Below, piece after piece: positions 1-47,860 of a stretch of DNA of 64,000 nt. The notes beneath the pieces were generated by a model that worked only from the letters and a program-made list of their open reading frames with translations, did not search any database and was not told where the DNA came from. The number at the start of each line of letters is the position of its first letter. Within the stretch, counting starts at the first letter, position 1. The position numbers were made by a program, and so were the translations under genes. This stretch comes from a virus: positions 1-64,000 of IMG/VR virus record IMGVR_UViG_3300009508_001156. The stretch is one strand, 5' to 3'.

Positions 1-6
1 AAACAC

Positions 7-618
7 ATGGGCGCATATGGAGATAGACCTTGTATTGTGCTATATAGAGAAGTTCCAAACGAACCAGAAAATTGTTTAATAGTAGAATCTGGCCAGCTTG
101 ATCCTAGAACACATGATGACTTAATGATGTTTGTGCAAAGTGCAGAAGGTCAAGAGGCTAATGACATCAGTCAAGTACTAGCAAGGAAAACATTTACTGA
201 TGGTAACAATGCATTAAACTCGTTGCATAATAACAAACAAATTAAAAAAGTACCAGTAGCGCAAGTAGTACTAAAACCTACTCCTACTCAAACTATCATG
301 TTGTCAGAAGTTAATGCTGAAATTAGGAAGATAGAATCTCGATCAGAAAATCATAAAACTAACCGAATCCTTCCAGAAGATCAACAAACTCGTGTCACTA
401 CTGCTGACATTGAGGGAACTACAGCAAATCAGGAAGTAGAAACTATCGACGATAGTAATATTGCAGAAGGATTGTTAGTACAAGCACAGTTAATGAAAGA
501 AGATGCTGAAGCAATGTTAGCGGACGCAGAAGCAAAAATAAATCAAGCATACGAATTAAATCCCGAGCTTGTTCCAAAGAAAGGTCCAGGACGTCCTAAA
601 AAAACTACTCTTAGCTAA
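7..618 (+). CDS. Conserved phage hypothetical protein with basic GRPKK tail
   Basis: This 203-residue protein has no function I can name. The first 100 residues look like a compact conserved domain (opening MGAYGDRPCIVLY). From about residue 105 the chain becomes acidic and probably partly helical, with alanine/glutamate-rich stretches near 150-185, and it ends in the basic, AT-hook-like tail KKGPGRPKK. That tail could contact nucleic acid, but this is inference. From memory, similar proteins with this opening and tail occur in T4-like cyanophages. Only six bases lie upstream in the window and they are in frame and open, so an earlier start cannot be excluded, although the ATG at 7 gives a natural N-terminus. 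The stop codon lies inside the hairpin described at 601-644. Confidence 0.7.
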   Translation: MGAYGDRPCIVLYREVPNEPENCLIVESGQLDPRTHDDLMMFVQSAEGQEANDISQVLARKTFTDGNNALNSLHNNKQIKKVPVAQVVLKPTPTQTIMLSEVNAEIRKIESRSENHKTNRILPEDQQTRVTTADIEGTTANQEVETIDDSNIAEGLLVQAQLMKEDAEAMLADAEAKINQAYELNPELVPKKGPGRPKKTTLS

Positions 619-5476: not shown

Positions 5477-6973
5477 TTAATCATGTGTAAATACAGGCCT
5501 ACCATATTGTAATGTCCATGCTTTAGCGTCATCCTCGTCGTTAATTATTGGCTGTCCTTTAATATTTAAACTAGTGTTCAGCAACATAGGGCATCCTGTT
5601 GAAGAGTAAAATTCCATTAGCAGTTGGTACAATCCAGGATGTTGGGACTTGTTAACTGTCTGCACACGGCTTGAACCGTCTGCATGAACAATAGCAGGAT
5701 ACATATTAGGGAATTTACATTTAGCAACAAATTGCATATAAGGACTTGATGCTACTGGCATATCAAAATATTTATTAGCGTATTGTTCTAAAACAACAGG
5801 AGCAAAAGGGCGAAATTGTTGGCGCTTCTTAATTACGTTAACTCTTTGTTTAATTTGTTCTCCTCTGGGATCTGCCATCAAACTGCGATTACCTAACGCT
5901 CTTGGTCCAAACTCCGCCCGGCCGTTTGCTATACCAAAAATTTTATTTGATGTTAGTGCACCCATTGCTTTATTCACAGGATACTTTCCTGGTATGTTTG
6001 TTCCTAAGTAAGGGCTTTTCCAGTTTACTTTATTTCCAGTTTGATTAAAATATTCTAATGCTGCGGCACCTAATGCACTACCTGCATCACCAGGATTAGG
6101 CATTATGTGTACATTTTCAAACAAAGAACACAGTCGACTGTTAGCAACACAGTTAAGAGCAACACCTCCCATAAATACTAGATTGTTTTCTCCAGTTATA
6201 TTTTTTGCTATGTTAGCATAGTCCAGTATGTGTTTTTCTGTAATGTTTTGTGCAGCTAATGCTATGTCCATATTATCATATTGATTAAAATGGCTTTTAT
6301 GTGGTAACCCACGTTGTAAATTTTCTCTAAATTTAATAGGGCCTTGTTTATTATTAAAGTAAACATCTGTCATTGCACTTTCGATATCAGCAGCAACAAC
6401 ATCATTCCCATATGCTGCCATTCCCATTAGAATGTATTCATCCTCCATGGGTTTTAATCCGACAAAATGTGTTACTGCGCTATAAAACAACCCTAAGCTG
6501 TGAGGGAATTTTATACTGTGTTTCTTTGTTAATTTATTATCTTTCCAATGCCATATACTAGCAGTATCAAATTCTCCAATAGCGTCAATAACCATAACAG
6601 CAGCACTATCTAAATTGCTTGTTAGTACACCAGCTGCTGCGTGTGTTTCGTGATGCCAATAGCTTTTAATTGGTACATCATTTAAAAACGGCATGCTTGT
6701 TTTAATAAAAGATTCTGCACTAGGTTCACGCAATCCGCTCCATTGTCTGCCAGCAATATTCCTCAAACGCTTTGCCCAAGTTTTTTCATGCAGCACTATG
6801 ACATCAGGTAGACCATAACTGAGAGCTTCAGTCATTAGTTGTTCGTTAAGAAAAGGATCATTCTTTTCTTTACTATAACGTTCAGCATGACTCGCAAACA
6901 ATATTTCTCCATCTTCTATAACGCATACTGCTGCATCATGGAACATACTGCTAATACCTAATATTCTATTCAT
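5477..6973 (-). CDS. NodU/CmcH-family O-carbamoyltransferase
   Basis: At 498 residues this is close to the usual family length. These enzymes move a carbamoyl group from carbamoyl phosphate, through carbamoyl-AMP, to a sugar or antibiotic hydroxyl. The N-terminal Kae1/YgjD-like half opens MNRILGISSMFHDAAVCVI, with a histidine near residue 12, and has HHETHAA near 106-112, fitting the metal-binding histidines. The middle carries GGVALNCVANSRL and NPGDAGSALGAAA. The C-terminal half has FGPRALGNRSLMADPR and FRPFAPVVL, then the nucleotide-site segment and LLNTSLNIKGQPI, all hallmark motifs. Its ATG overlaps the HAD gene stop (ATGA). In context it probably carbamoylates the sugar made by the adjacent heptose-type cassette. 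The family identification is strong; the substrate is inferred. Confidence 0.95.
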   Translation of the reverse strand: MNRILGISSMFHDAAVCVIEDGEILFASHAERYSKEKNDPFLNEQLMTEALSYGLPDVIVLHEKTWAKRLRNIAGRQWSGLREPSAESFIKTSMPFLNDVPIKSYWHHETHAAAGVLTSNLDSAAVMVIDAIGEFDTASIWHWKDNKLTKKHSIKFPHSLGLFYSAVTHFVGLKPMEDEYILMGMAAYGNDVVAADIESAMTDVYFNNKQGPIKFRENLQRGLPHKSHFNQYDNMDIALAAQNITEKHILDYANIAKNITGENNLVFMGGVALNCVANSRLCSLFENVHIMPNPGDAGSALGAAALEYFNQTGNKVNWKSPYLGTNIPGKYPVNKAMGALTSNKIFGIANGRAEFGPRALGNRSLMADPRGEQIKQRVNVIKKRQQFRPFAPVVLEQYANKYFDMPVASSPYMQFVAKCKFPNMYPAIVHADGSSRVQTVNKSQHPGLYQLLMEFYSSTGCPMLLNTSLNIKGQPIINDEDDAKAWTLQYGRPVFTHD

Positions 6974-32772: not shown

Positions 32773-35700
32773 CTATCTTTCATCAATAACTATGGAAGGC
32801 GGCCTTATCGGCTCCGGTCCTGAAGGTTCTGGTCCTGAAGGTCCGGCTGTTACTGTAATTGGGGCAGTGGCAGTGGCGGTAGTCGGCACTGCGCCTGCTT
32901 TGTATGCTGTTAGTGTTGTACTAAAGTTGCCGGCACTTTTGTACGGGCCATTTACTCGTGAACCCGATCCTGATAACCTGTAAGTTCCAGTGTCACCTGT
33001 TACTTCTACTGAAGTTGCGTTAGATACACTCCAATACAATGTATTAGATTGACCTACTTCTATTGTTGCTGGCTCCCAGAAGAAGTATTTAATTACTGGT
33101 GTCGGTGGCGGTGTCGCTGGTGTAGTTGGTTGTTCTTCTACTGGTACATCCTCACTTGGCAATGTATAACTATCCGGTAGCCAATATATTGAGGTTGAAT
33201 CTGAATCTTTAACTGCGTTATTGCTCTTAGATCGCACTTCAATAGTCATGACTGATGTTGCAGGATCAGCGTTAACACCTTGAGAACCACTGGAAAATAT
33301 TATTTGAGAGCCAGTAGTACTATACCAAGTATTAAACGATTGAGCATTGCCAGTAGACCCATTATTATATGCATACATTATTGCACTAGTTTGGTCGGCA
33401 AGAGCACTATCACTATGTCTATATGATACTTTCCATTCATAATCACTAGCACTTTCGCCTGCTGGTAACCAAGTACTTTCAGTTGTAATTGTTCCTTTTG
33501 ACCCTGCTATTTTCTTTATTGTACCATCATCGTCTATTATAAATGTAAGTATTGTTCCTGTAGGATAATCTCCTGCTGCAAAATTTTGTACATTGATATA
33601 AGTCCATAATATTCCAGTACTATACGCTTGTGCTAAATTGACAGTGGGAGCAGGTATTGGCGCTGGATTAACATTAAGTATCTTAGTTGATGCAGTGTAC
33701 GACGTTCTAAAATCACTGTAAAATGACATGTCTACTGCTATCACAGGATCTGTTACAGCGTATGTTCCGTCATTAATTACAGGGAAAAACAAAGGAGCTG
33801 TTGGGTCACCGTCTTGTCTAACTCCTGGCTTATTTTGAAATGCGACACCACTCGCATCTGTGGTCAGTGTTGCGTTATTTTGTGTACCGTCATAATTAAC
33901 ACCAGCTACAGCAGTAGTTTTACTAGAATTTATTCTCCAGTAAATGGTTGTTCCTGCTGGCGCTGAACTTATACCCCAGAAAAACACGTATCCTTGTAGT
34001 ACAGGATTAGCAGTTGTACCATCTTCTTTTATATTTTCAGAAGCAATAACATTGATATCTTGTCCTGATGGACTCCATGGCACAGGCAAAGTGTTAACGC
34101 TTTTAATTGAACCGGTGATGTCTACTAATCTATTCGGTGTAGTAGTAACTCGCCAATTTCCTTTAAACGTGTCAAAGGAACTAGGATCATATTTTAAAGT
34201 TAATCCTTCCATTTTTGCTAGATATGATTGATTTCTTTTAACCAAACTATTTGCTGGAACATAAGGATATGTTATTGTTCCTGTTTTATAAGGTTTATCA
34301 AGACTGCCTAAACCATCAGTACCGCTTATTAAGTTTACTATGCTAGCGTTAGGCACAAGTGAGCCATCATCAGTGAATGCGTAGAACTCTAATATAATGT
34401 CTTCTCCTGGCGGTACGTTATTAAAGAAGCCTCGGAAGTTTAACACACCGCCTTCTTCACTTGTTATCGCAGTGCTCTGACCAAACCCTTTCTCAAGAGT
34501 GCTTCCGCCTGAAGTATAATCAACTTTTCCAAACACAAACTCCATGGGCGCTTGCGCAATAGTGTATGTTGTAGATTTACTTTCGTACCCAGCAGCAGCA
34601 GTTCCAGCAGGAGCAGTCACAGTTATAGTTTCTGTGGCCGCAGTATTGTAATATTTTTGTGGAATAAGATCATTTAAGCGCACATTTGTAGTATTTCTTT
34701 TTATTAAAGTATAAAAATCTGTTGATGTGTGATAGAAATTATTGTTAGTTAGTTGTACACGAACTCCTTTTCCTATCATTCCTTTGCTGTTAATTGTTAG
34801 AGTATAAGTAGTGCTACCTTCTGTAGCATTTTGTACACTAATACTGTTGATTCCCACAGAGCTTGCAGTGTCGCTTACATTAATTTTCATGGTAACCACA
34901 TTACTGTATTGGTCTGCTATAATTTTTCCTCGATTATTATATATAATTATTCTCTGTCGTATGTCTATACCGTTTGCCCAATTATGGATAACAGTTGTAT
35001 CTCCTATGTCATTAAAATAAAACCCTTCGTCACCGCTCCCCAAATAATAAGCGCTAGATGTCTTATTAACCCAGTCAGAACCACCGAGATCGTTTTTAAA
35101 AGAGGTCCACTCGCCATCCTGTATACGCTCCCACTGATAAAAGAAAGTTAAATCTTCTAGTGCATACGTACCTGGATTTAAAAAATAATGATCGTCATTA
35201 CCTGTATTAGAAGCAATGTCATATGATTTCCATTTAACGTAACCGTCGCCAGTTTGAGATAATACATTATTAATAGTATAATAAGTTACCTCAGATGCTT
35301 CTAATTCGCTAGTAATAGCAAAGAAGAATTCTACATTGTCGTAAATTCTAGCCGTAAAGTCTACTAGTGCTGTTCCAGCAACCGCAGCATTATAGAATGT
35401 AAAATTAAACAGTTCATAATTAGCAGCGCTACCGCCCAATGGTGAATCGTCTTCGCCTTTAAATTGTATAGCAAAGTGGGCAATATAATCTGTGTCAGTT
35501 ACTGTTACATTATAACATTCTACTGCTACTCTAGTTCCGCTGTTATATTTTGCCCATGCTTGATTACTATTTTTTCTAAAGTAAATATCATTAGCACTAG
35601 TTCCATCTCCTACTATGCGATCATTTTGCAAGTAAACAATGTCACCAACTTTGTACGACAAGTTTTTAATTTGTATGTCAAACAAATCTACAACAGATTC

Positions 35701-38700
35701 TTCTCTAACATATACTTCCCATTTATCAATATTACCAGTATAATTTTTGCCGTTGGACCCTAACCATCGTGCCTGAATATTGTATGCTGGTACAGAAGAT
35801 ACTGTGGTTAACGTGTCTGCAAAAATAGGATCGCCTGTGTAACCAGAATTTGTAAAAAATTCTATAGAATAAGATCGATCCACAGTATCACCAACGTTAA
35901 CCAGACTTGTTATAGTTTTTCTATGATCGACAGGCCTACTTCCATCATAATATAAATTTTCATCTAAACTAAAACTTCCACTGTCTGTGACAAACTCGTT
36001 TGCAAATGCTCCAAGAGGAACTATACGCCAGTAGTAAGTAGTGGCTCCAGCACCCATATTGTATGGGGTAAACACTGCTGATATTTCCCCGCCTTTTATT
36101 GCGCTAGTAACACCACCTAAACTGAATATTGGTACATAGTATTCTGTAAAATATTGCACAGTTATAGGACTAGTGGTTGCCCAATCCCCAGTGGTCGTCT
36201 GATCTGGATCATTTAACTCTTGTCTTGCCCTTGCTCTAAATCTAATTTGATGTCCGTTTAAATCTTGGCTGCCACCCAAGCCGTCGTTACTGCCAGCGTC
36301 CCAATAGAACTGCGTGTTGTCAGTAAGATTTTCAGCAAACCATTCTTTGCCAGGATCGATACGTCTCTGCCATTCGTAATCTACGTAATTGTCAGGAGTT
36401 CTTCCTGGAGCAGAATCAAAGTTGGGATAAATATATCCTCTTTTAAATGAGCCAAAAGTAACTGAGTTTCCAATTGTACTTATAAGCGTATCATCAACAA
36501 ATCTTCTATACACTGTTACATACTGAGTACCAGTAGAATTAGGTTTTATTGGCAGCACACTAGTTGTTAACGCTGATGCTGATGGTTGATATGTAGATAC
36601 TTTAAATGCAGCATTGGATATTTTACTGCTACTAGTATGTGCAAAAGATGCATCGTTCTTAAAAGGAACTACTCTGTCATCTGGACCATACAGTATTGCT
36701 ATAACGTCTAGTCTTATGTTATAGTTTTTTGCATCACCAAGAGGTAATAAAGGCGGAGAACTGACAGTAAACACTGAATCATTAACTTTTGTTTCTCTTG
36801 ATAAGAATACTCCGTCTCGGTACCAGGTGAATGTTACAGACCGTGTATACTGATATTGAGATGGACTAGGTCTTGGTGGAATAGGCCATGAAGATTGTTG
36901 CCAATCCACACTAATAGTTGCAGAAGATGCGATAAGGCTTTCAGTATCATTAGTGTAACCTGAAACATCACCAAGATTAGTAATTTTTATTACTGGATCA
37001 GGGAATGGTAGATAATAATTCTGGTATCCAACCATATCACTCCACTTAAACGGTATCCTGTCTGTTACCTTTTTCCTTGGATAAACACTGGGATTATAAC
37101 CTGCCCATTTATATGTAGGCTTTGACGTTGCGCTGTATAACAATGTTGGATTATCGTAAAAGAAACTAACAGGAAATGACTGTATATCGGTGTCAATTAC
37201 TGGAGCTAGTTTATCCGAAAATTCTTCTACATCAACCGGCTTGTCAACTACAGTACCAAATTGATCAAACTGATTACCTTGAATTGATATTATGTTTCCG
37301 TCGCCGGGTGGTTGTTCAACAATAATTGTTACTGTTCCAATATTAGTACTAATATTCCCAAAGGTATTTTTTATTGTGTATTGAAAAGTATCAGTGCCCA
37401 CCCAGTTTGTGTTAGGTACATAAACCACATTGCCTGTAGGTTGGTCTAACTGTACTATACCATTCAAAGGTAAAGAAATAATTGTTACGCTAGACGGATC
37501 TATACTGGCTCCTATATCGTTACTGGGTAAGTTGATTTCTGCAATAGTGTTTTTTTCTATAGTTACTGAATCGTTGACAGCTAGTGGTAGCTGCAGAATA
37601 TCTACTGAGACTGTAGCGTTTGAAGCAGGAAGGTTATAAACATCTGATACTTTATATGTAAACGAATCTAGTCCCGTATAACCAAATGCTGGAGTATATT
37701 GAATAGTACCATTCTGTTGGACAATTGCAGTACCATTAAGCGGAGTACTAGTCATTCTTACTGTGCTAGGTCTAATGTTATTTTCTAAATCTATATCGTT
37801 TGCCAACACATCTATAATGACAGTATCATTTTCGAATGTGGTTATTGAATCATTTACTGATATTGGCGCTGTGTTTATTCCTACAGTAGTGAGAAATATA
37901 TATACTGCTCCTTCAATACCGCCTAATACTGATCCAGGCGAAGTGACTATGCTATAGTTATCTGATAATCCAACGTAGTTGCCAAATCTACTGTTTATAT
38001 CGGCATTAGGATCAACTATAGCATAAAGATAACTGCCAGTTGCTGTATCATAAACATGCACTATGCCTGTTTGATTGTTGCCGTCTGGAACGGAAACTAA
38101 AGTTCGGACATTGTCTATTGCTACTGAAGAGCCCATAAACATTGGAAGGGCGCTTTCTTCGGGATTATCTAGAGTGTGCAATAGTGCACCGGTGCTAGTG
38201 TTAAAAATATAAGCAGCGCCCCACTGAATTCCAGAATAGGTTAGAGAATCTCCAGTGGCTCTTGGTGCGCCAATTACTGCATAATCATTTGTTATTGCTA
38301 CTGAAGAACCAAAGAGGTCTTGTGTGCCAGGGTTAGCAGGGTTTTCTAACGTGTACAATTGTGCGCCAGTGACTGTATTGTATATATACGCTATACCAGT
38401 ATCGCCTAGCGGTGCGACAGTCGCGTCTTCGCCAGGAGCACCCACAACAAAATAAGTATCTGTCATTGCTATTGCACTACCAAAACGGTCTCCCGAGCCT
38501 GAATAATAGAGATTAGGATTAGTTATTGTATGCAGCAGTGTAGCAGTTGCGAGGTCATAAACATACACTATGCCACTGCTTGCGCCACCTTGGGTAAAAG
38601 TAGGGTCGCCCACTATGAAATAATTATCTGTTATTGCGACTGTTTGACCAAAGTTATTAAACTCGTAAGGTGGGCTAGGATCAGATATTGTATGCAGTAG

Positions 38701-41700
38701 TAAGCCAGTAAAAGCATTATAAATATATGCCCTTCCAGGGCTTACACCAGTGGTAGCGTCTTCGCCGTAAGAACCTACAATAGCATAGTTGTCTGTTATT
38801 CCTACAGCGGATCCAAAATAATCATTTATACTTAAATTGTCAGGATTAGGATTTACTAATGTGTGCAGTAATTCGCCAGTTGTATTATTAAATATATATG
38901 CTTTACCTGAACTAGTACCATTATCATCGTCTTCGTTTGGTGCGCCTACTATACTATATCGATCGGACATTGCTACCACTTCACCAAAATTATCACCAAC
39001 TGAAGAACCATATGCATTTTCGTTATTCACAGTGTGTAATAACAATGCATCAGGACCTGATATTGTAATGGTCACATTAGCAGGATTAGAAGTTCTACCA
39101 ACAGTATCACTTATTGTGTATGATAAGGTATCTACGCCAATAAATCCTGTATTTGGTGTATACGTAATCGTACCATCATTTAAATAAATTGCTGCGCCGT
39201 TTACTGGAGGAACTGTTATAATCAATGTGTTTAAATCTATTGGATCATTTCCTGTAAGGTCATTAGATACTACGTTTATATTAAATGCAGTATTAACAAG
39301 CCCAATGAATTCGTCGTCCTCTGCTACCGGTGGAGATGCTTGATTTACAGTAATAGTTACTGTGCCAGGTGTCAGACTGGTAGCGTTATTACTATTTGTA
39401 ATATTATATGTTAGTGTATCAATACCAAAGAACTGTGAAAACGGAGTATAAGTAATTGTGCCGTCTAAATTATTAATCACAGTACCGTTGCTAGGCACTG
39501 TTTCAATAACAGTTAATGTTGGAACTAAGGCGCCTTCGCCGGGGGAATCATTTGATAAAATATCAAAAGTTTCTACTTCCGCTTGATTCATTGTTACTGT
39601 ATTATTAGCAGCAATTGGTGCTTGAAAAACTCTAATAGTAACAAATGCAGTATTACTGTCTGTATCCTCGTTGTCAGTTACGTTATATGCAATTATGTCT
39701 GTGCCATAGAAACCAGGATTAGGGGTATATGTAATGTAAGCATCAGGTAAACTAAAAGTTACATTTGCAGTACCAAAATCCGGAGGTGTAACAATATTTA
39801 ATGCAGTTAGTCCCGAAGATGGGCCGCTATCGGAAATATTACCTGATAAATCTATGATGATTGTTGTCGATTCTCCAGTAGATGTATTTACACTAGTAGC
39901 AGTAGGCGGAGTATTTGGTGTTTTACTAGTGTCAATAATTATAACACTGTCACTTAGTCCTCCAGTAAATGTACCAAAACTATCCTGAGCTACTAGTGTA
40001 ACAGTAGCAGTCATGTTGCCATCTGTTGTAAAGTCTTCTGTGGCAGTAAATGCAAGTATGCCGTAGTCTGTATTGTTAATAAATATATTGCCTGTTAGCG
40101 GGACTGATATATCTCCGCTGCCAACACCTGTTATTACATATCCAATTTCAGTATTGACAGCTACGTTTTCAGTATCAACTCTAAACACTGCAAAATCTGT
40201 TCCATTTTCTGTTATGCTATCTACATCAAACGCAGCAGATAAGTAGGCAGGGGTTTTGCTAGTGTCAATTAATGTTACCTGCGCCGATAATGATCCAGTT
40301 GGGTCGCCGTTACTGTCCGTAGCACCAAGTGTTACAGTTAATATTTCTGGTCCTTCTGTCAAGAAGTCTTGGCTTACTGTAAACGCAAGTTGTCCTATGT
40401 TACCTTGAACTATAACTATATCGCCTGTTAAAGAGTTAAGATTTAAATCATCAGTTGTAATGCCGCCGCCGCTGATTGTGTAAGGTACTGTTGTTCCTGA
40501 CACAACGTCAGTGGTATTAATTGTAAAAATAACAATAGTTGTGCCATCTTCGTTAACAGTAGGAAAATTAAAACCTACTGTGTTGTAGGTAGGTGTGCCT
40601 GGTAGCGGTGATTGGCTAGTGTCGTTTAAAATAATACTATTTGCTAAACTACCTGTGTTAGTTCCAACAGAGTCTTGTGCGTCCAACGTAATCGTTAAAG
40701 TTTCGTTTCCTTCTGTTAAACTATCTGTATTTACAGTAAAATCAATACTATCAGTATTATTGATTATTGTAAAATCTCCGGTTAGAGATATTAAACTTAT
40801 ATCATTAACAGTAATTCCTGTCCCGCCTACAGTATAACCAATTGTAGTTCCGTCTATTACGTAACTAGTATCTACTGTGAAAACTACTTGTGTTGACGAA
40901 TCTTCGTCAACGTTAGTTAAATTAAAGTATACATTATCATATATAGGATCATTAACTGATGTATCAACAAGTAACACAGTGTCACTTAACCCGCCTGTTG
41001 ACCATCCTGCACTATCTGTTGCATCCAGGGTTAAGATTAAAGTTTCGTTTCCTTCTGTTAAATTATCAGCAATTACATTGAAAGACACACTACCTGTATT
41101 ACTGTTGATAGTAATACTACCAGTGAGGCTTGGTAGGCTGATATCATCAACTGTGATTCCAGTACCACTAATAGTATAACCAACAGTGGTCCCATCAAGT
41201 ACTGCTGTAGTGTTCACAGTAAATATTACATCAGTGTTGTCCCCGTCTGAGTCTTCGTTAACACTGTTAATATTAAAAGTTGATGTGTTATAAACTCCTG
41301 CTGTTACACTAGTATCATTGATGGTTACAGTATTACTCAGTGATCCGGTACTAGTACCAAAACTATCATTAGCATCTAGTGTTAAAATTAAGGTTTCTGG
41401 ACCTTCCGTAAACGTGTCGGCTAACACCTGGAATTCTAGTGTACCTTCGTTTGCTGTAATAGTTATAGACCCTGTTAAACTGCCTAAACTAATGTCGTTA
41501 GTTGTTATACCAGTACCGCTTATGGTGTAACCAATTGTTGTAGCATCTGTTACATTAGTGGTATTAACTGTAAATGTTACATTACTGCCGTCTTCGTCTA
41601 CCGATACAGGCGAAACATCTAATGAATCATATATTTTACTTAGGCTGGTATCATTAATTAGTAATACATTGCTTAAACTGTTTGTTGCCCATCCCGCACT

Positions 41701-44700
41701 GTCAGTTGCATCTAGTGTCAAAGTAAGTGTTTCAGCACCCTCAGTTAAGTTATCAGTTAACACCTGTAATGCTAGTGTGCCTTGATTAGAATTTACATTA
41801 ATTGTTCCAGTTAAACTACCCAAACTGATATCATCAACTGTTATGCCAGTACCGCCTACAGTATATCCAACAGTGGTACCATCTAATACAAATGCAGTAT
41901 TAATAGTAAATGTTACTGTGCTACCGTCTTCGTCTACTGATGCAGGAGAAACCAGCATTGTATCATACGTTCCTATACCTGATACTTCAAGCGTAACAAT
42001 TGCATTGCCGCTCAGTGTTGGATTAAGGCTAGTTACATTATATTTGAAAGAGTCTGCTCCTACATATCCTTCGTCAGCTGTGTATAATATTGCAGCATTT
42101 CCTAAATCAAGTACTGCGGTACCGTAAGTAGGTTGTTCTGCAATTGTTAATGTGCTGACGTTTGCTAAATCAGAATTACTAGTGGCAAATGTCTGTGTCG
42201 CAGGATAATAACTATCTGCTATATCGTATCTTGCAGATGCAGTAAATCGAATGTTATCCATGTAACAATCGTTAAGTTTATATGAGGTGGTACTAAATGC
42301 ATCTCTACCGAGATATATAATACTGTCTGTTTCAGATATATTGTTAAGACTTGTAAGAGTAGAATCTTCTCTTACTAGTACTCCGTTTATAAACACAGCT
42401 AACGAATCATTATTTCGTTGTATTGCAATTTTGTTCCAATCGTCATAGACCCAGCCAGTTAATCCTTGAAAATTTCTAATAATAGAACTAGAGGAACTAA
42501 CTAAACATGTTAAACCTGTGCCGTTAAAAAATACACGTAACGGACCGTTGTTAACGCTTTTAGCACACATCATCGATTGCGTACCAGTAACACTGCTACT
42601 AGATATTTTAAAGCTCCATTCCACAGTCCACTCAGGACTTGTAAAGAAATTACTAGCAGCTAAATTTGTAGAATCGATTGATGCTCCTGTATGAAAATTC
42701 TTATCTCCAAAATATAAGCTGCCAAGATCATGTTCGCCACCAGTGGTTACAAATTCTATCGACGAGCCAACTGGAGTAATATTACCGAGATAAGTGCTGC
42801 CGGTAGCACTGGCTGCTGTGCCTAAACTGGGAGATATAAAATTGTAAATAGCTCTAACATTTGCAAAATGAGGATCGTAACTTGTAGAATTTTTTAGTAC
42901 AGGTATTGTTGATGTGCCAGGGCTATTTGCCTCAAACGAGAAATCTGAAACAGCTACTCTCTGATTTATGTATACTGTAACATTTGAAATATCGCTAGTT
43001 ACGTCAGTGGTACTATCTACTGTGTACGTAAAAGAATCTAGTCCGTATCTTATGCTCGATGTATAATCAATTGTACCATCTATGTTTGGAGATGCTGTGC
43101 CATTAGAAGGACTAGTATCAACTACCACTGTGGATACATTAGCATTTATACCATCGTTTGCTAAAACATCAAGTACTGTGGTTTCTAATCCAAATGTAGT
43201 AAAAGAATCATCGGCTACTGTTACGAGTTGTCCGCTACCAACTTGCACAGAAACATCAGATTGATTAGTGCTAACATTACCTAAATTATTTTTTAAGGTA
43301 AAAGAAAAATTGTCTGGCCCAGTATAACTAGTATTTGGAGTATATTCCACTGTGCCTTGGGATGGATCAATTAACGTAACCGTGCCGTTGGTTGGCGTAG
43401 TAGTAACCGTAAATTCACGAAAATTTGTTACAGCTACGTTACTTGTTAAATCCCGTAAATTAATAGTTGCTGGCTGGTTTAAATTTGTAGTCACTAATGA
43501 AGGATTGCTCAAAGTAATATCACTTAGTGATTCGTTAACGTCTATAGAATATTTAGAATATACAACATTACCAGCAGCGCCCAGGAGTGAACTAGTGTAC
43601 GCTGTATAGTCAGTGTCTGATCCTGTACTGTACATTACATTATAACTGTTATCGTTTATAATCCGGTCTTGTATTTGTGCTGGTGTTAAATTAGGATTAG
43701 CTTGCAAATGTAATGCTGCTATGCCTGCCACCTGTGGGGCGGCCATACTAGTACCGCCAAGTTCTACCATTCTAAAATTAGTGTCTGGAATATAATTATA
43801 AACATCTAAACTTGCATACGAATTAACTGTAGAAGTAGCACTTGCTATGCTATCGCCTGGAGAAAATATGTTTACTGCTGGACCTCTGGTGCTGCTCGAA
43901 GCTACACGGTCTTTATAAGTCCCGTCTAATATTTGATCTGTGTCTATGCTTCCTACAAAAAAAATATCAGGGCTGTAAGGAGATCCCTGTCGATGATAAA
44001 ATCTTGTTATGGCACCCCACGAAACTGAATTATCGTACTCTACATCGCCTGGTAGAGTATTTTTATAATAGTTGTTTCCTGCTGAAATTGTTACTATTAT
44101 TCCTGCTGATGCAATAGTGTCAATGTCTGTGTTCGCACTAGTACTGGTACCTGGTAATTTATACTTATAACCATTTGTGGGATTTCCTAATTTTGGTACT
44201 ATACCTGTGCTATTCCACAGCGTCGTGCCTACCGTGTATCCGGGATCTCCAAATGTCCACGGTGTACCCCTGTATTCACCGGAATCTGGTTCATTTTCGT
44301 TCTGGTAAAGAAACCCCCAGCTCATATTCATTACTGTAGGACGTCCAGTGTAGATAGGATCAGCAGGATTGTTTTTACGATTATGCCATGCTACAACAAG
44401 GTCAAATATTACTGAATAATTAATACCATTATAAGGATCTGTTGGTCCTTCTAGTCCTGCCATTTTAAACGAATATATATCTGCGTTTTTAGCCCATCCA
44501 TATGTTTTACCAGCAGCAATTGCGGCGCAATGTGTTCCATGTCCCTCAAAGTCAGTGTAAAAATTAGTTGGCATAGTTCCTGGAATATCAGCAGCATCAT
44601 ACCAATCAATTTGTCTTACACGACTATTTCCATCTGCGTCTTCGAATTCAGGATGATCGGCTTGTATTCCGCTATCCATTACTACAAAGTCGACGCCGGT

Positions 44701-45108
44701 TCCATCTCTGCTATAACTATAATCCCCTGCAATAGTTGTGCTACCACCAAATGTATTGGTAGTTTCAATAACTCTACGTAAACCCCAGTTAACATGATCA
44801 TCAGCAGTACTACTACTTCTATCAAAATCTCCTGATTGGGTAGTCACTACAAATCTTTCAACAATCATACCTGGTTGTTGAAGTGGTGGAATTTCTACTT
44901 CTAGTATTCTAGGATCTGCACGTAACTGTTCAGCTTCGTCATCACTGAGATTAAAACTAGTAATACGTGGATTTTTATATCTTGGATCAACAATTTCCAC
45001 TTCACGATCAGGGATCGTTTCGTTACCAAATGCAGCACACAGTTCTTGTTCTAGCTCAGCTAAATCCACATCTTTATGTACAATGACATTGTATTCTCTA
45101 TGTACCAT
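32773..45108 (-). CDS. Giant subtilase fused to adhesin and propeller domains
   Basis: This 4111-residue protein starts with ATG at 45108 behind AAGGA; the TTG just before it is rejected. Residues 1-80 look like an I9-type propeptide. The S8 catalytic domain (about 100-490) has VVMDSGI (Asp145), EGHGTHCA (His190), SAGNN (Asn345, oxyanion hole) and GGTSMAAPQVAG (Ser454), a complete triad. Cadherin-like Ig repeats follow, then a LamG/concanavalin-like region (about 750-960), six Calx-beta-like repeats (about 1045-1730), three more cadherin-like units, a seven-bladed FG-GAP-like propeller (about 2015-2410; repeats such as FGSAVGITDNYAIVG), two more cadherin-like units and about 1500 residues of beta-rich domains. 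The C-terminal end is SGPEPSGPEPIRPP. No signal peptide is clear. Its place among fibre genes suggests a virion-bound protease-adhesin that trims or binds surface proteins. Confidence 0.9.
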   Translation of the reverse strand: MVHREYNVIVHKDVDLAELEQELCAAFGNETIPDREVEIVDPRYKNPRITSFNLSDDEAEQLRADPRILEVEIPPLQQPGMIVERFVVTTQSGDFDRSSSTADDHVNWGLRRVIETTNTFGGSTTIAGDYSYSRDGTGVDFVVMDSGIQADHPEFEDADGNSRVRQIDWYDAADIPGTMPTNFYTDFEGHGTHCAAIAAGKTYGWAKNADIYSFKMAGLEGPTDPYNGINYSVIFDLVVAWHNRKNNPADPIYTGRPTVMNMSWGFLYQNENEPDSGEYRGTPWTFGDPGYTVGTTLWNSTGIVPKLGNPTNGYKYKLPGTSTSANTDIDTIASAGIIVTISAGNNYYKNTLPGDVEYDNSVSWGAITRFYHRQGSPYSPDIFFVGSIDTDQILDGTYKDRVASSSTRGPAVNIFSPGDSIASATSTVNSYASLDVYNYIPDTNFRMVELGGTSMAAPQVAGIAALHLQANPNLTPAQIQDRIINDNSYNVMYSTGSDTDYTAYTSSLLGAAGNVVYSKYSIDVNESLSDITLSNPSLVTTNLNQPATINLRDLTSNVAVTNFREFTVTTTPTNGTVTLIDPSQGTVEYTPNTSYTGPDNFSFTLKNNLGNVSTNQSDVSVQVGSGQLVTVADDSFTTFGLETTVLDVLANDGINANVSTVVVDTSPSNGTASPNIDGTIDYTSSIRYGLDSFTYTVDSTTDVTSDISNVTVYINQRVAVSDFSFEANSPGTSTIPVLKNSTSYDPHFANVRAIYNFISPSLGTAASATGSTYLGNITPVGSSIEFVTTGGEHDLGSLYFGDKNFHTGASIDSTNLAASNFFTSPEWTVEWSFKISSSSVTGTQSMMCAKSVNNGPLRVFFNGTGLTCLVSSSSSIIRNFQGLTGWVYDDWNKIAIQRNNDSLAVFINGVLVREDSTLTSLNNISETDSIIYLGRDAFSTTSYKLNDCYMDNIRFTASARYDIADSYYPATQTFATSNSDLANVSTLTIAEQPTYGTAVLDLGNAAILYTADEGYVGADSFKYNVTSLNPTLSGNAIVTLEVSGIGTYDTMLVSPASVDEDGSTVTFTINTAFVLDGTTVGYTVGGTGITVDDISLGSLTGTINVNSNQGTLALQVLTDNLTEGAETLTLTLDATDSAGWATNSLSNVLLINDTSLSKIYDSLDVSPVSVDEDGSNVTFTVNTTNVTDATTIGYTISGTGITTNDISLGSLTGSITITANEGTLEFQVLADTFTEGPETLILTLDANDSFGTSTGSLSNTVTINDTSVTAGVYNTSTFNINSVNEDSDGDNTDVIFTVNTTAVLDGTTVGYTISGTGITVDDISLPSLTGSITINSNTGSVSFNVIADNLTEGNETLILTLDATDSAGWSTGGLSDTVLLVDTSVNDPIYDNVYFNLTNVDEDSSTQVVFTVDTSYVIDGTTIGYTVGGTGITVNDISLISLTGDFTIINNTDSIDFTVNTDSLTEGNETLTITLDAQDSVGTNTGSLANSIILNDTSQSPLPGTPTYNTVGFNFPTVNEDGTTIVIFTINTTDVVSGTTVPYTISGGGITTDDLNLNSLTGDIVIVQGNIGQLAFTVSQDFLTEGPEILTVTLGATDSNGDPTGSLSAQVTLIDTSKTPAYLSAAFDVDSITENGTDFAVFRVDTENVAVNTEIGYVITGVGSGDISVPLTGNIFINNTDYGILAFTATEDFTTDGNMTATVTLVAQDSFGTFTGGLSDSVIIIDTSKTPNTPPTATSVNTSTGESTTIIIDLSGNISDSGPSSGLTALNIVTPPDFGTANVTFSLPDAYITYTPNPGFYGTDIIAYNVTDNEDTDSNTAFVTIRVFQAPIAANNTVTMNQAEVETFDILSNDSPGEGALVPTLTVIETVPSNGTVINNLDGTITYTPFSQFFGIDTLTYNITNSNNATSLTPGTVTITVNQASPPVAEDDEFIGLVNTAFNINVVSNDLTGNDPIDLNTLIITVPPVNGAAIYLNDGTITYTPNTGFIGVDTLSYTISDTVGRTSNPANVTITISGPDALLLHTVNNENAYGSSVGDNFGEVVAMSDRYSIVGAPNEDDDNGTSSGKAYIFNNTTGELLHTLVNPNPDNLSINDYFGSAVGITDNYAIVGSYGEDATTGVSPGRAYIYNAFTGLLLHTISDPSPPYEFNNFGQTVAITDNYFIVGDPTFTQGGASSGIVYVYDLATATLLHTITNPNLYYSGSGDRFGSAIAMTDTYFVVGAPGEDATVAPLGDTGIAYIYNTVTGAQLYTLENPANPGTQDLFGSSVAITNDYAVIGAPRATGDSLTYSGIQWGAAYIFNTSTGALLHTLDNPEESALPMFMGSSVAIDNVRTLVSVPDGNNQTGIVHVYDTATGSYLYAIVDPNADINSRFGNYVGLSDNYSIVTSPGSVLGGIEGAVYIFLTTVGINTAPISVNDSITTFENDTVIIDVLANDIDLENNIRPSTVRMTSTPLNGTAIVQQNGTIQYTPAFGYTGLDSFTYKVSDVYNLPASNATVSVDILQLPLAVNDSVTIEKNTIAEINLPSNDIGASIDPSSVTIISLPLNGIVQLDQPTGNVVYVPNTNWVGTDTFQYTIKNTFGNISTNIGTVTIIVEQPPGDGNIISIQGNQFDQFGTVVDKPVDVEEFSDKLAPVIDTDIQSFPVSFFYDNPTLLYSATSKPTYKWAGYNPSVYPRKKVTDRIPFKWSDMVGYQNYYLPFPDPVIKITNLGDVSGYTNDTESLIASSATISVDWQQSSWPIPPRPSPSQYQYTRSVTFTWYRDGVFLSRETKVNDSVFTVSSPPLLPLGDAKNYNIRLDVIAILYGPDDRVVPFKNDASFAHTSSSKISNAAFKVSTYQPSASALTTSVLPIKPNSTGTQYVTVYRRFVDDTLISTIGNSVTFGSFKRGYIYPNFDSAPGRTPDNYVDYEWQRRIDPGKEWFAENLTDNTQFYWDAGSNDGLGGSQDLNGHQIRFRARARQELNDPDQTTTGDWATTSPITVQYFTEYYVPIFSLGGVTSAIKGGEISAVFTPYNMGAGATTYYWRIVPLGAFANEFVTDSGSFSLDENLYYDGSRPVDHRKTITSLVNVGDTVDRSYSIEFFTNSGYTGDPIFADTLTTVSSVPAYNIQARWLGSNGKNYTGNIDKWEVYVREESVVDLFDIQIKNLSYKVGDIVYLQNDRIVGDGTSANDIYFRKNSNQAWAKYNSGTRVAVECYNVTVTDTDYIAHFAIQFKGEDDSPLGGSAANYELFNFTFYNAAVAGTALVDFTARIYDNVEFFFAITSELEASEVTYYTINNVLSQTGDGYVKWKSYDIASNTGNDDHYFLNPGTYALEDLTFFYQWERIQDGEWTSFKNDLGGSDWVNKTSSAYYLGSGDEGFYFNDIGDTTVIHNWANGIDIRQRIIIYNNRGKIIADQYSNVVTMKINVSDTASSVGINSISVQNATEGSTTYTLTINSKGMIGKGVRVQLTNNNFYHTSTDFYTLIKRNTTNVRLNDLIPQKYYNTAATETITVTAPAGTAAAGYESKSTTYTIAQAPMEFVFGKVDYTSGGSTLEKGFGQSTAITSEEGGVLNFRGFFNNVPPGEDIILEFYAFTDDGSLVPNASIVNLISGTDGLGSLDKPYKTGTITYPYVPANSLVKRNQSYLAKMEGLTLKYDPSSFDTFKGNWRVTTTPNRLVDITGSIKSVNTLPVPWSPSGQDINVIASENIKEDGTTANPVLQGYVFFWGISSAPAGTTIYWRINSSKTTAVAGVNYDGTQNNATLTTDASGVAFQNKPGVRQDGDPTAPLFFPVINDGTYAVTDPVIAVDMSFYSDFRTSYTASTKILNVNPAPIPAPTVNLAQAYSTGILWTYINVQNFAAGDYPTGTILTFIIDDDGTIKKIAGSKGTITTESTWLPAGESASDYEWKVSYRHSDSALADQTSAIMYAYNNGSTGNAQSFNTWYSTTGSQIIFSSGSQGVNADPATSVMTIEVRSKSNNAVKDSDSTSIYWLPDSYTLPSEDVPVEEQPTTPATPPPTPVIKYFFWEPATIEVGQSNTLYWSVSNATSVEVTGDTGTYRLSGSGSRVNGPYKSAGNFSTTLTAYKAGAVPTTATATAPITVTAGPSGPEPSGPEPIRPPSIVIDER
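39915..41975 (-). repeat. Six tandem ~345-bp Calx-beta-like coding repeats
   Basis: Six units each contain VDEDG or a variant (V/I-x-E-D/N-G), then VGYT(V/I)-x-GTGIT-x-(D/N)-DISL, LTG and LTEG-x-ETL(T/I)-(L/I)-TLDA, ending near (I/L)NDTS. The matching codons recur at 336-356-base spacing (for instance near 40464, 40820, 41161, 41512 and 41848). They are similar enough in DNA to allow unequal recombination. The motif LTEGPETL is a hallmark of Calx-beta domains, which often bind calcium. Confidence 0.75.
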
Positions 45109-45124
45109 CAAAAAAATCCTTGCT

Positions 45125-47179
45125 TTAATCGCCGAGTCGTTGTTTCAGAGCGTCTATTTCATTAGATAAATCTTTTATTGCTTCAATTAACAATCCCACC
45201 ATATTTCCGTATGCAACACTCTTTGTCCCGTCAGGATCGTCGCCAGTGTGAACAACTTCTGGTAGTACTGATTCTACATCTTGTGCAATAACTCCTGTGT
45301 GCTTAACCGAATCTCCTATCAATGTGTATGTGTATCCCGTAATTGCTTTAACTTTTGATACTGCATCGGTAATAGGTTCTAAATTTTCTTTTAGTCTTAA
45401 ATCACTAAATGCAGTAATGTCGCCTGATGCAGTAATGTCGCCTTTCTTTGAAAACGTTATGCTATGATTTGTAGCAGTGCTATCGTCGCGAGTGTTAAAA
45501 ACTAAATTTGTCGTTGATGTAGGTATTCCTGCTGGAAAATCTGCGGATGCACCGTATCGAATATTTTTTGATATATCTATTCCTGCTGGAAAATCTGCTC
45601 TTGCCGTAAACGTCTTAACCCCTGTTGCTGTTTGGCTGGTAGTACCTTGTAGTAATAAGAAATGCGTAGCAGGAACTAGATTATCAAACGGTGTTGTTCT
45701 AATAAAACTAATTTCGCCCGTAGTATTATTATACTCTAGTGCAGTATTTGATGCTGTTGCAATAGAAATTAATTCTCTTGTATAATTAACATTAGATTGA
45801 AAATCTAATGATCTAACATTTAATGATAAACTACCAATTGGTGTTTCTGTCGAAGATGATTCTACTACATCAATACTACCATTACTGCTAGTAACATATT
45901 TAATATTACTTATAGGGTCTGCAAATTCACTTCCGCCAGTTACATTATTTAAATACATAAGCTGACCGTTAGTACCAGTACTAGCAGGCATTCTGTAGCC
46001 ATTAATATCAGCATGTCCCTGAATGTTTACGTTAGCTGCACTAATGTTGTTTACTCGGTCACTAGTTGATGCAATGTCTCCGCCTGATGGAAAAAGTATA
46101 TTAGTATAGACATTAATAGTAGATGCGCTTACAACATCAACTGGATCAGCTTGAGACCCAATGGTGTATGTACCACCATTAGATAAAATGCTATTGCCAA
46201 TTTTTAAATCATTTATATAACCTTGTGAGAATAGGTTAGTAGTACTACCTAAATTATATGTATTACTTACTACAGGAACAGTGTTTGCACCATGATGAAA
46301 CACATTAGCAGCAGCAATGTTTGTACCACCGTTATCTTCAATTTGTCCGTTAACTAATTCAAGGTAATAAGAACCAGTGTTTAAATTATAAGCAGCATTA
46401 GATCTTTGTGATAATCTTGCTGAATTAACTACTGTTTGATCGTCTAATCGAGTATTCATCCCAGGATATATAGTAGTACCTATACCGCCTATACTTTGTA
46501 CAATATCGAATTGAGGATGAAAATTATGAGTATCTCCATCTGTAGTACTTACTGCATCTGCAACAGTAAAAGAAGTTTCGTGTCCACTATATAATGCAAT
46601 AATACGCTCGCCGTCATAATAGCCGCTTGCTGTTATTTCACCATCATTTTTATAATATAATGCTAATACTGAGCGCGGTATTCCATCAGTATCAACTAAG
46701 AAGATATTTCTTATACTGGTTCCATAAAAAGTTGGATTGCTTAGTTCAGAGTTTGTATCATACAGTAGGGATATTTCCCCTGGCTTGTTTGCTAGTTGAT
46801 ACCCAGTAGAGCCCGTGTTAATATATAATTGACCTGTACCAATGTTAAAATATTCTGTACCTGCTTTGTTTTGGCCGTGTATATTTGTAGGAGGGGAGTT
46901 TACTACAAGAGGGCGATTTGGCAGCCATGCACCCGTAGTGCCGTCGTATGATCTCAACACTTTAAAGTTTTTATCGTACCATAATTGACCACTTGTTGGA
47001 TCAGCTGGCGGAGTACCGTCAGAGGCGAAATTATCTAATAAATCGATTTGGGTTTTTGCAATAACTTGACCATAATTCTCATAGTTACGTCCAATAAGAT
47101 CGATACTGTAGTCACTGTTAAGACTACCGTCAGGTATCGTTATTGGTTCGCCGCTTGCATTCTCAATAATATATGGCAC
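45125..47179 (-). CDS. Tail-fibre protein with peptidase S74 chaperone
   Basis: This 684-residue fibre shares its first 90 residues with the fibre at 30864-32702 (MPYIIENASGEPITIPDG, IDLIGRNYENYGQVIA, SGQLWYDK), a probable baseplate or tail anchor. The shaft is rich in Asn, Thr, Ser and Gly. The last 105 residues form an S74 intramolecular chaperone: SDLRLKENLEPI has the catalytic Ser and Lys, HTGVIAQDVESVLPEVV and VAYGNMVGLLIEAIKDL are family motifs, and a final coiled coil (NEIDALKQRL) ends it. In such proteins the chaperone makes the trimer fold, then cuts itself off at the serine. The subtilase-adhesin follows after 16 bases. The stop and the subtilase start suggest co-transcription. Confidence 0.9.
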   Translation of the reverse strand: MPYIIENASGEPITIPDGSLNSDYSIDLIGRNYENYGQVIAKTQIDLLDNFASDGTPPADPTSGQLWYDKNFKVLRSYDGTTGAWLPNRPLVVNSPPTNIHGQNKAGTEYFNIGTGQLYINTGSTGYQLANKPGEISLLYDTNSELSNPTFYGTSIRNIFLVDTDGIPRSVLALYYKNDGEITASGYYDGERIIALYSGHETSFTVADAVSTTDGDTHNFHPQFDIVQSIGGIGTTIYPGMNTRLDDQTVVNSARLSQRSNAAYNLNTGSYYLELVNGQIEDNGGTNIAAANVFHHGANTVPVVSNTYNLGSTTNLFSQGYINDLKIGNSILSNGGTYTIGSQADPVDVVSASTINVYTNILFPSGGDIASTSDRVNNISAANVNIQGHADINGYRMPASTGTNGQLMYLNNVTGGSEFADPISNIKYVTSSNGSIDVVESSSTETPIGSLSLNVRSLDFQSNVNYTRELISIATASNTALEYNNTTGEISFIRTTPFDNLVPATHFLLLQGTTSQTATGVKTFTARADFPAGIDISKNIRYGASADFPAGIPTSTTNLVFNTRDDSTATNHSITFSKKGDITASGDITAFSDLRLKENLEPITDAVSKVKAITGYTYTLIGDSVKHTGVIAQDVESVLPEVVHTGDDPDGTKSVAYGNMVGLLIEAIKDLSNEIDALKQRLGD

Positions 47180-47191
47180 TGTTTAATCCTC

Positions 47192-47860
47192 TTAGCTTAG
47201 TTGTACTCTAATAGTGTAAATTACTTCTATCTCTCTGTTTGAACTTTTTTGTACTGGATGAAAAAGTACATGGGTTAACATTGTGCTTGTGTTTATAATT
47301 TCTTCTGGGGTTGCTAATCCAGTATCAGTTGGGTAAGAAAATAAAGCAAGCTCATCGAAAATGTAATCTCCTTCATTAGTTGTACTACTATCAAACGTGT
47401 CTTGACCACTTGGTTCATTATATGCTAACGTACAGGTACATTTAATATCAGTGTAACTTTGTCCTGGGATTATCGATATATTATTATTAACTTGATCGCT
47501 GTTTTCGTCGCTGTCGCTAATAGCCTTCCAATATGTCCTACTGTATAAGTTTGCACCTGATTCATATCCTTCGGTGACCCTAGGGGTTTTATATGATACT
47601 TTTCCAGCTGTATCTACACTAGTTCCGCCATTTCCGAAAGCAAGATAATGAATATATGCTGTTTCATTATTACTTAATGCTTGAGCTACTATGTATGCCA
47701 TATTACCGTAATGAATAGCATTTCTTTTGTTTACGATCTCCTGACCGGTTTGCTTGTCGCGGATTAAAATATGCCCGCTCACGTTCAATCCCATTTGGTC
47801 ATCTGGTTTTGTAGATTGATTCATAACTTGTTTTTCCGAATTTGGTTTATTAACATCCAT
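47192..47860 (-). CDS. Virion structural protein, 222 residues
   Basis: This is a 222-residue beta-rich protein. VSGHILIRDKQTGQEIVNKRNAI is followed by AFGNGGTSVDTAGKVSYKTPR and YIFDELALFSYPTD, with NREIEVIYTIRVQL at the end. I recall similar proteins in T4-like cyanophages annotated as structural and found beside fibre genes; the FGNGG and DELALF blocks are the most characteristic. It lies 12 bases from the S74 fibre gene and behind a late-promoter octamer. It may be a connector or a fibre-base protein. Its exact place in the particle is unknown. Confidence 0.65.
   Translation of the reverse strand: MDVNKPNSEKQVMNQSTKPDDQMGLNVSGHILIRDKQTGQEIVNKRNAIHYGNMAYIVAQALSNNETAYIHYLAFGNGGTSVDTAGKVSYKTPRVTEGYESGANLYSRTYWKAISDSDENSDQVNNNISIIPGQSYTDIKCTCTLAYNEPSGQDTFDSSTTNEGDYIFDELALFSYPTDTGLATPEEIINTSTMLTHVLFHPVQKSSNREIEVIYTIRVQLS

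Follow-up and report, generated by a model that had tools for sequence, protein, structure and literature searches.

The locus and its virus

IMGVR_UViG_3300009508_001156 is a 111,068-base virus record with genes for a baseplate, a portal, a head protease and a capsid of T4 type. The window analysed here is a stretch of 64,000 nucleotides of that record, and the features discussed below are collected in Table 1. At its centre is a single long frame that encodes a subtilase of 4111 residues when read from the ATG at 45108. A TTG at 45111 provides an alternative start (ORF 45111..32773, minus strand, 4112 aa); the ATG is the likelier of the two because AGGA lies 8 nt upstream. Residues are numbered from the ATG, and numbering from the TTG adds one to each (D146, H191, N346, S455). 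The same open frame, within one codon, is present in a second assembly that is ~98–99% identical (IMGVR_UViG_3300020185_002701), which rules out an assembly artefact. Scans for promoters and terminators gave results at chance level.

Table 1. Positions, within the window, of the subtilase gene, its parts and its neighbours.
Feature	Position	Strand	Basis or remark
Downstream fibre, 612 aa	30864..32702	-	PA5oct gp359 (ESI-MS/MS) homologue
Whole subtilase gene	32773..45108	-	4111 aa from ATG at 45108
C-terminal 1,508 residues, no recognised domain	32776..37299	-	no Pfam match
Two cadherin-like domains, 2412-2602	37306..37878	-	Big_9/Cadherin_5, best stretch 2413-2504
Seven FG-GAP repeats, probable seven-bladed propeller, 2024-2411	37879..39042	-	FG-GAP_2 1.3e-38
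Cadherin-like/Big_9 domains, ~1734-2020	39052..39912	-	Pfam Big_9/Cadherin_5
Six Calx-beta repeats, 1049-1733	39913..41967	-	repeat alignment; NCX1 CBD12 fold match
LamG / concanavalin A-like lectin domain, ~760-975	42187..42834	-	Laminin_G_3 5.6e-7
Two cadherin-like/Big_9 domains, ~545-720	42952..43479	-	Big_9, Cadherin_5, sequence motifs
Subtilase catalytic domain, proteinase K type, ~105-525	43537..44799	-	Pfam S8 and fold
Catalytic Ser S454 in GGTSMAAP	43747..43749	-	invariant in 90/90 aligned members
Oxyanion-hole Asn N345	44074..44076	-	invariant in 90/90 aligned members
Catalytic His H190	44539..44541	-	invariant in 90/90 aligned members
Catalytic Asp D145	44674..44676	-	invariant in 90/90 aligned members
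I9-type propeptide, ~4-78	44878..45102	-	AlphaFold b-a-b-b-a-b; PDB matches
Upstream fibre, 684 aa, S74 chaperone (Peptidase_S74)	45125..47179	-	N-terminus like PA5oct gp358 (ESI-MS/MS), 4e-14
222-aa structural protein, phrog_11259	47192..47860	-	PA5oct gp357 (ESI-MS/MS) homologue, 38%, 9e-47
Giant baseplate protein, 7914 aa	47898..64000, to record 71642	-	PA5oct gp355 (ESI-MS/MS) homologue, E 8e-78

The major capsid protein of the record is 67% identical to that of PA5oct/MIJ3 and 61% identical to that of Sinorhizobium phage Phosso, and the 222-aa neighbour of the subtilase matches Rak2-like phages. These sequences show the record, which comes from an uncultured marine virus, to be part of the genome of a jumbo myophage allied to PA5oct, Rak2 and Atu_ph07. 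The subtilase does resemble proteins of cyanophages, but the capsid protein and the 222-aa neighbour rule out a cyanophage. A bacterial origin was likewise discarded: a profile scan of genome contigs returned only ordinary S8 proteases (E at least 2e-22, partial cover) and no source. Nor is the subtilase the head maturation protease, which is encoded separately in the same record (phrog_207).

The arrangement of the neighbouring genes is informative. In PA5oct the giant baseplate protein gp355 is followed by gp357, gp358 and gp359, all four bearing an ESI-MS/MS note; between gp355 and gp357 lies gp356, which is small and without MS verification. Homologues of gp355, gp357, gp358 and gp359 are present here in the same order, and the subtilase gene is inserted between the equivalents of gp358 and gp359, which in PA5oct are adjacent. 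Because the four homologues are collinear, with the subtilase between the last two, the subtilase gene is, on the evidence of gene order, an addition to a virion operon. In Phosso the operon starts in the same way and has no subtilase at that place, its S8 fusion being located elsewhere. An earlier note on this DNA had placed the gene between two fibre genes, and so it lies: the fibre with the Peptidase_S74 domain is upstream and a tail-fibre-like gene, whose product is 47% identical to gp359 over the C-terminal 146 residues (E 3e-29), is downstream.

Two further features of the neighbourhood may be recorded. The 7914-aa baseplate gene is about twice the length of its PA5oct homologue (gp355, 3857 aa). 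The fibre genes are followed, at 5477–28578 of the window, by an extended run of sugar genes and radical-SAM genes: besides several radical SAM proteins it encodes three nucleotide-sugar epimerases, a dTDP-4-dehydrorhamnose epimerase, a UDP-glucose dehydrogenase, a carbamoyltransferase and a cysteine dioxygenase. Radical SAM genes occupy the equivalent place in Phosso.

The protease and its appended modules

The N-terminal part of the protein has the features of a complete subtilase. Pfam recognises it as Peptidase_S8 (E=1.5e-29), and the motifs VVMDSG, GHGTHC, SAGNN and GGTSMAAP follow one another in the order that marks MEROPS family S8A; the tetrad D145/H190/N345/S454 is exactly as first read, in ATG numbering. 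Structure prediction, suggested in the earlier note as a check, points the same way. The AlphaFold model of residues 1–640, built on a 41-sequence alignment (mean pLDDT 79, the low-confidence part being the tail after 524), combines a proteinase K fold with an I9-type prodomain. Its catalytic domain aligns with aqualysin I (Z 35.6, 2.0 Å over 268 residues; VIA-align), as expected of a subtilisin fold, and several PDB matches run on through the prodomain: unautoprocessed pro-subtilisin E 3whi (model 3..522), ProN-Tk-SP 3afg (1..520) and fervidolysin 1r6v (4..522). Predicted fold and structure alignment thus agree on an I9-type prodomain of the kind found in MEROPS S8A, proteinase K type, and given such a prodomain at its N-terminus the 4111-aa protein looks like a self-activating zymogen. 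By eye, no signal peptide is apparent before the prodomain.

Beyond the protease, each type of module named in the earlier note was recovered. The LamG-like domain scores 30.2 bits against a Pfam cut-off of 27.6 when its segment is scanned alone (Laminin_G_3, E=5.6e-7), and cadherin-like repeats are recognised in eight stretches by Big_9 (8e-54) and in six by Cadherin_5. Seven FG-GAP repeats, spaced 52–60 aa apart, match FG-GAP_2 (E=1.3e-38) and probably form a seven-bladed propeller. The six Calx-beta-like repeats require more care. Each is ~115 aa long and they are 38–65% identical to one another; when a two-repeat AlphaFold model (pLDDT 94) is compared with the PDB, 3us9, the tandem of Calx-beta domains from NCX1/CALX, ranks first (NCX1 CBD12, E=8e-10). 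The Pfam model PF03160 does not match these repeats, and homologous repeats in two relatives (L022 and L075) match Pfam Calx-beta below the cut-off. Because NCX1 CBD12 tops the fold matches while PF03160 finds nothing, the six repeats are best described as having a predicted Calx-beta fold and not as PF03160 members at the level of Pfam.

The same repeats (residues 1173–1366, window ~41014–41595) are matched by PHROG 1922, annotated as baseplate hub and tail lysozyme; some phage gp5-type hubs therefore carry them as well. The C-terminal 1,508 residues contain no Pfam domain and have no match in phage records, and a search of IMG/VR returned only the 98% copy.

A family of phage subtilases

Residues 4–632 of the protein match positions 5–630 of the 696-position profile of PHROG 9158 (E 3.5e-59), prodomain included, which makes it a member of that family. 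In IMG/VR, at least 527 stretches that encode such proteins came up in a profile scan. Most of the 93 ORFs that we examined are lone enzymes of 515–650 aa (~520 aa typically) beside a fibre gene; about twenty are fusions of 700–2374 aa, and the 4111-aa protein is the longest of all. The D/H/N/S tetrad and a proline of the prodomain, Pro34, are identical in 90 of 90 aligned members (near-copies included), an invariance that argues for selection on protease activity.

These data bear on the possibility that the enzyme does nothing but mature its own chain, the C-terminal part being an ordinary adhesin fibre and there being no host target. The proportions of the 4111-aa protein, in which the adhesin part is six times as long as the enzyme, would suit such a role. 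Yet most of the family members sampled are standalone enzymes, and these have all their catalytic residues intact; because forms free of any adhesin retain them, the enzyme appears to have a job of its own, and we regard self-maturation as its sole purpose as very unlikely.

Across the family the protease is repeatedly seen fused to LamG, Calx-beta or Ig-like modules. When 80 protease domains are placed on a quick tree, a minimum of 10 changes of the label "fused" is needed, as against 16.3 for shuffled labels. Long C-terminal extensions therefore came or went repeatedly, although the tree does not set the direction, gain or loss. Calx-beta repeats are fused to the protease in ~15 members and are encoded by a separate downstream gene in L048. 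In four loci (L020, L021, L023 and L026) the FG-GAP propeller has a gene of its own, ending 3–8 bp upstream of that for the protease, whereas in the 4111-aa protein it is fused to the protease: two parts separate in some phages and joined in another are classical evidence that they work together. Module swapping is suggested within a single lineage too, for at L003 8592–11876 the same upstream genes (homologues of the 222-aa protein and the fibre) precede a protease whose C-terminal modules, a GYGG repeat among them, are wholly different from those of the 4111-aa protein.

Among IMG/VR relatives the protease gene starts within -10 to +20 nt of the upstream gene in 60 of 70 loci. Since phage operons are generally tightly packed, what the partner is tells more than how close it lies. 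Every one of the 25 ORFs in the set with the fibre motif GD.IYNTT..Y.NG.W at its end is such an upstream partner (near-copies counted), and among the other partners are matches to T4 gp9/10, Mtd_N or collagen-like fibres. Two loci carry tandem pairs of different subtilases, one of 684–718 aa followed by one of ~510 aa (L065 7822–11542, L046 4707–8310). A motif search hinted that one had lost its His, as a dead paralogue might; alignment shows the tetrads to be intact.

The earlier note held phage particle proteases of this size and architecture to be little described. As regards the literature we searched this stands: it yielded no functional study of a phage subtilase, and Sullivan et al. 2010 give no function for the S8 peptidase that they mention, T4-GC518 (PMC3037559). 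As regards the proteins themselves it does not, for the family is a common one, with annotated members in dozens of phages, and is already defined as PHROG 9158. What is unusual in the 4111-aa protein is its length and its combination of modules; it is an extreme variant of a known, uncharacterised kind. The pattern of repeated fusion and the split propeller are, as far as we searched, new observations. The prodomain, the insertion context, the link to a propeller encoded by a separate gene and the jumbo-phage identity go beyond the earlier note.

Location, role and relation to known systems

Whether the protein travels in the particle is central to its interpretation. A homologue in the cultured Synechococcus phage S-SCSM1, S-SCSM1_228, bears the label "(virion protein)" in GenBank. 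Mass spectrometry identified 45 virion proteins in this phage (PMC9602691). We counted ~48 such tags in its record, in which the structural genes SSCSM1_17, 209, 211, 215 and 245 are untagged; the closeness of the two numbers, together with the want of a tag on plainly structural genes, indicates that the tag is experimental. In addition, NC_070962 annotates a family member as "virion structural protein", and homologues of the FG-GAP part are annotated as virion structural proteins in S-TIM5 and S-MbCM6. With flanking homologues verified by mass spectrometry in PA5oct – the gene stands between the equivalents of two adjacent virion genes – and S-SCSM1_228 tagged as a virion protein, the location of the 4111-aa protein in the phage particle, as the earlier note supposed, is well supported by homology.

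A late protein that is no part of the particle might nonetheless be freed at lysis, there to degrade debris, decoy receptors or extracellular matrix and so aid release and spread. In their mix of S8, Calx-beta, cadherin-like and FG-GAP modules, giant exoproteases secreted by bacteria are similar to this protein. Moreover, the authors of the S-SCSM1 study point out that proteins with no structural role may be carried through CsCl purification (PMC9602691). Against release at lysis stand the other products of the operon, which in PA5oct are virion proteins, and the fibre and FG-GAP structural partners of the family; we consider it decidedly unlikely.

The explanation that we favour, with somewhat more confidence than doubt, is a virion-borne, self-activating protease-adhesin. 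The protein, apparently lacking a signal peptide, would be synthesised inside the infected cell from the operon that encodes the baseplate and fibres of a jumbo myophage related to PA5oct and Rak2. Judging from what is known of the family, the ~75-residue I9-type prodomain would fold the proteinase K-like domain and then be removed autocatalytically. Once mature, it would become part of the baseplate/fibre complex, the protease forming its N-terminal end, while the remaining ~3,500 residues would supply a Ca2+-binding stalk (Calx-beta, cadherin-like) and, as binding modules, a lectin (LamG) and the FG-GAP propeller. On contact these modules would hold the particle to glycans or proteins of the host surface, and the protease would clip proteins there, whether of the outer membrane, S-layer, pilus or matrix, much as tailspike depolymerases attack polysaccharide. 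The domain make-up, the prodomain, the tetrad and its invariance, the insertion of the gene among virion genes, the spread of the family, its repeated fusions and the tie between propeller and protease are observed here, and presence in particles is supported by a relative; activity, substrate, orientation and the order of steps are elements that we infer. That the protein both digests and binds host surface material, as the earlier note proposed, is plausible in view of the intact invariant tetrad, the prodomain and the adhesin modules, and proteolysis of a host surface protein is in our analysis the likeliest role of the protease. The binding modules would seem not to be essential to its job, since most relatives are lone proteases of ~520 aa.

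The prevalence of lone enzymes is equally the starting point for the main rival, in which the protease serves fibre assembly: it would trim neighbouring fibre or baseplate proteins inside the cell, lone forms acting in trans, and a fused adhesin would be its own substrate, released by cleavage. Most members do lie only a few bases from a fibre gene, with start and stop often overlapping; no signal peptide is seen by eye; subtilases cleave themselves; and autocleaved chaperones are common in phage fibres, the gene upstream having an S74 domain. However, the operon of PA5oct, and partly that of Phosso, is made up in the same way with no subtilase there, so the baseplate does not need one. Head maturation is served by its own, separately encoded protease, the upstream partners differ widely with no common cut site seen, and S-SCSM1_228 is tagged as present in particles. 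An assembly protease is for these reasons an unlikely reading.

A wider reading suggests itself: the particles of many marine tailed phages may bear an active subtilisin that serves generally in entry, the protein-degrading equivalent of depolymerase tailspikes that act on polysaccharide, with host-specific modules (LamG, Calx-beta, FG-GAP propeller, Ig-like) swapped by repeated fusion and the 4111-aa protein the most extended form seen. We advance this tentatively, as something a little short of an even chance. The matter is of consequence because the particle enzymes known to clear the host surface act mainly on polysaccharide, whereas here is a family found in at least 527 IMG/VR stretches, situated in fibre operons and with one cultured member tagged in particles. 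Were host surface proteins clipped, a missing class of entry enzyme would be added for ocean phages. The cultured carriers S-SCSM1, P-SSM2, S-H38 and S-CREM1 make a protease role directly testable.

Comparison with known systems places the protein in context. The hypothesised mode, a particle-borne enzyme that clears a surface layer with the aid of a binding module, is that of phage tailspike depolymerases; the target here would be protein, and no beta-helix was found in the 4111-aa protein. PA5oct shares the syntenic virion operon gp355–gp359 and a closely similar capsid protein (MCP 67% identical) but is without the subtilase, gp358 and gp359 standing side by side.

Atu_ph07 and Phosso, jumbo phages allied to the source virus, come nearer in that each encodes a subtilase with Ig-like repeats by its tail-fibre genes (AUZ95088, 1251 aa, and gp119, 1287 aa). 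These fusions differ in genome position, in having He_PIG modules in place of LamG/Calx/FG-GAP, and in a more distant protease. We found no mass-spectrometry statement for either; the virion clusters of Atu_ph07 are CDS 31–76, 170–215 and 284–329. In Phosso (PV764938 57900–77309) a 3,692-aa FG-GAP protein, gp108, lies ~4.5 kb from the S8 peptidase gp119, another neighbourhood of propeller and protease.

S-SCSM1_228 (QFG06492) resembles the 4111-aa protein in its N-terminal subtilase, its LamG domain (Laminin_G_3, E 1.2e-25) and its place in a fibre cluster. It is unlike it in being 1411 aa long and ~27% identical in the protease domain, and neither propeller nor Calx repeats were detected in it. 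Finally, the "subtilisin-like serine protease" of cyanophages that belongs to PHROG 9158 (P-SSM2 PSSM2_297, S-H38 QPB07966, Sf-FR1_192, S-CREM1_165 and that of S-WAM2) has the same prodomain and protease and the same baseplate/fibre neighbourhood: in S-H38 and S-CREM1 a ~5,400-aa baseplate gene is followed by a "tail pin" and then by the protease. There the enzyme stands alone, at 550–610 aa, whereas in the 4111-aa protein ~3,500 adhesin residues have been added to it.
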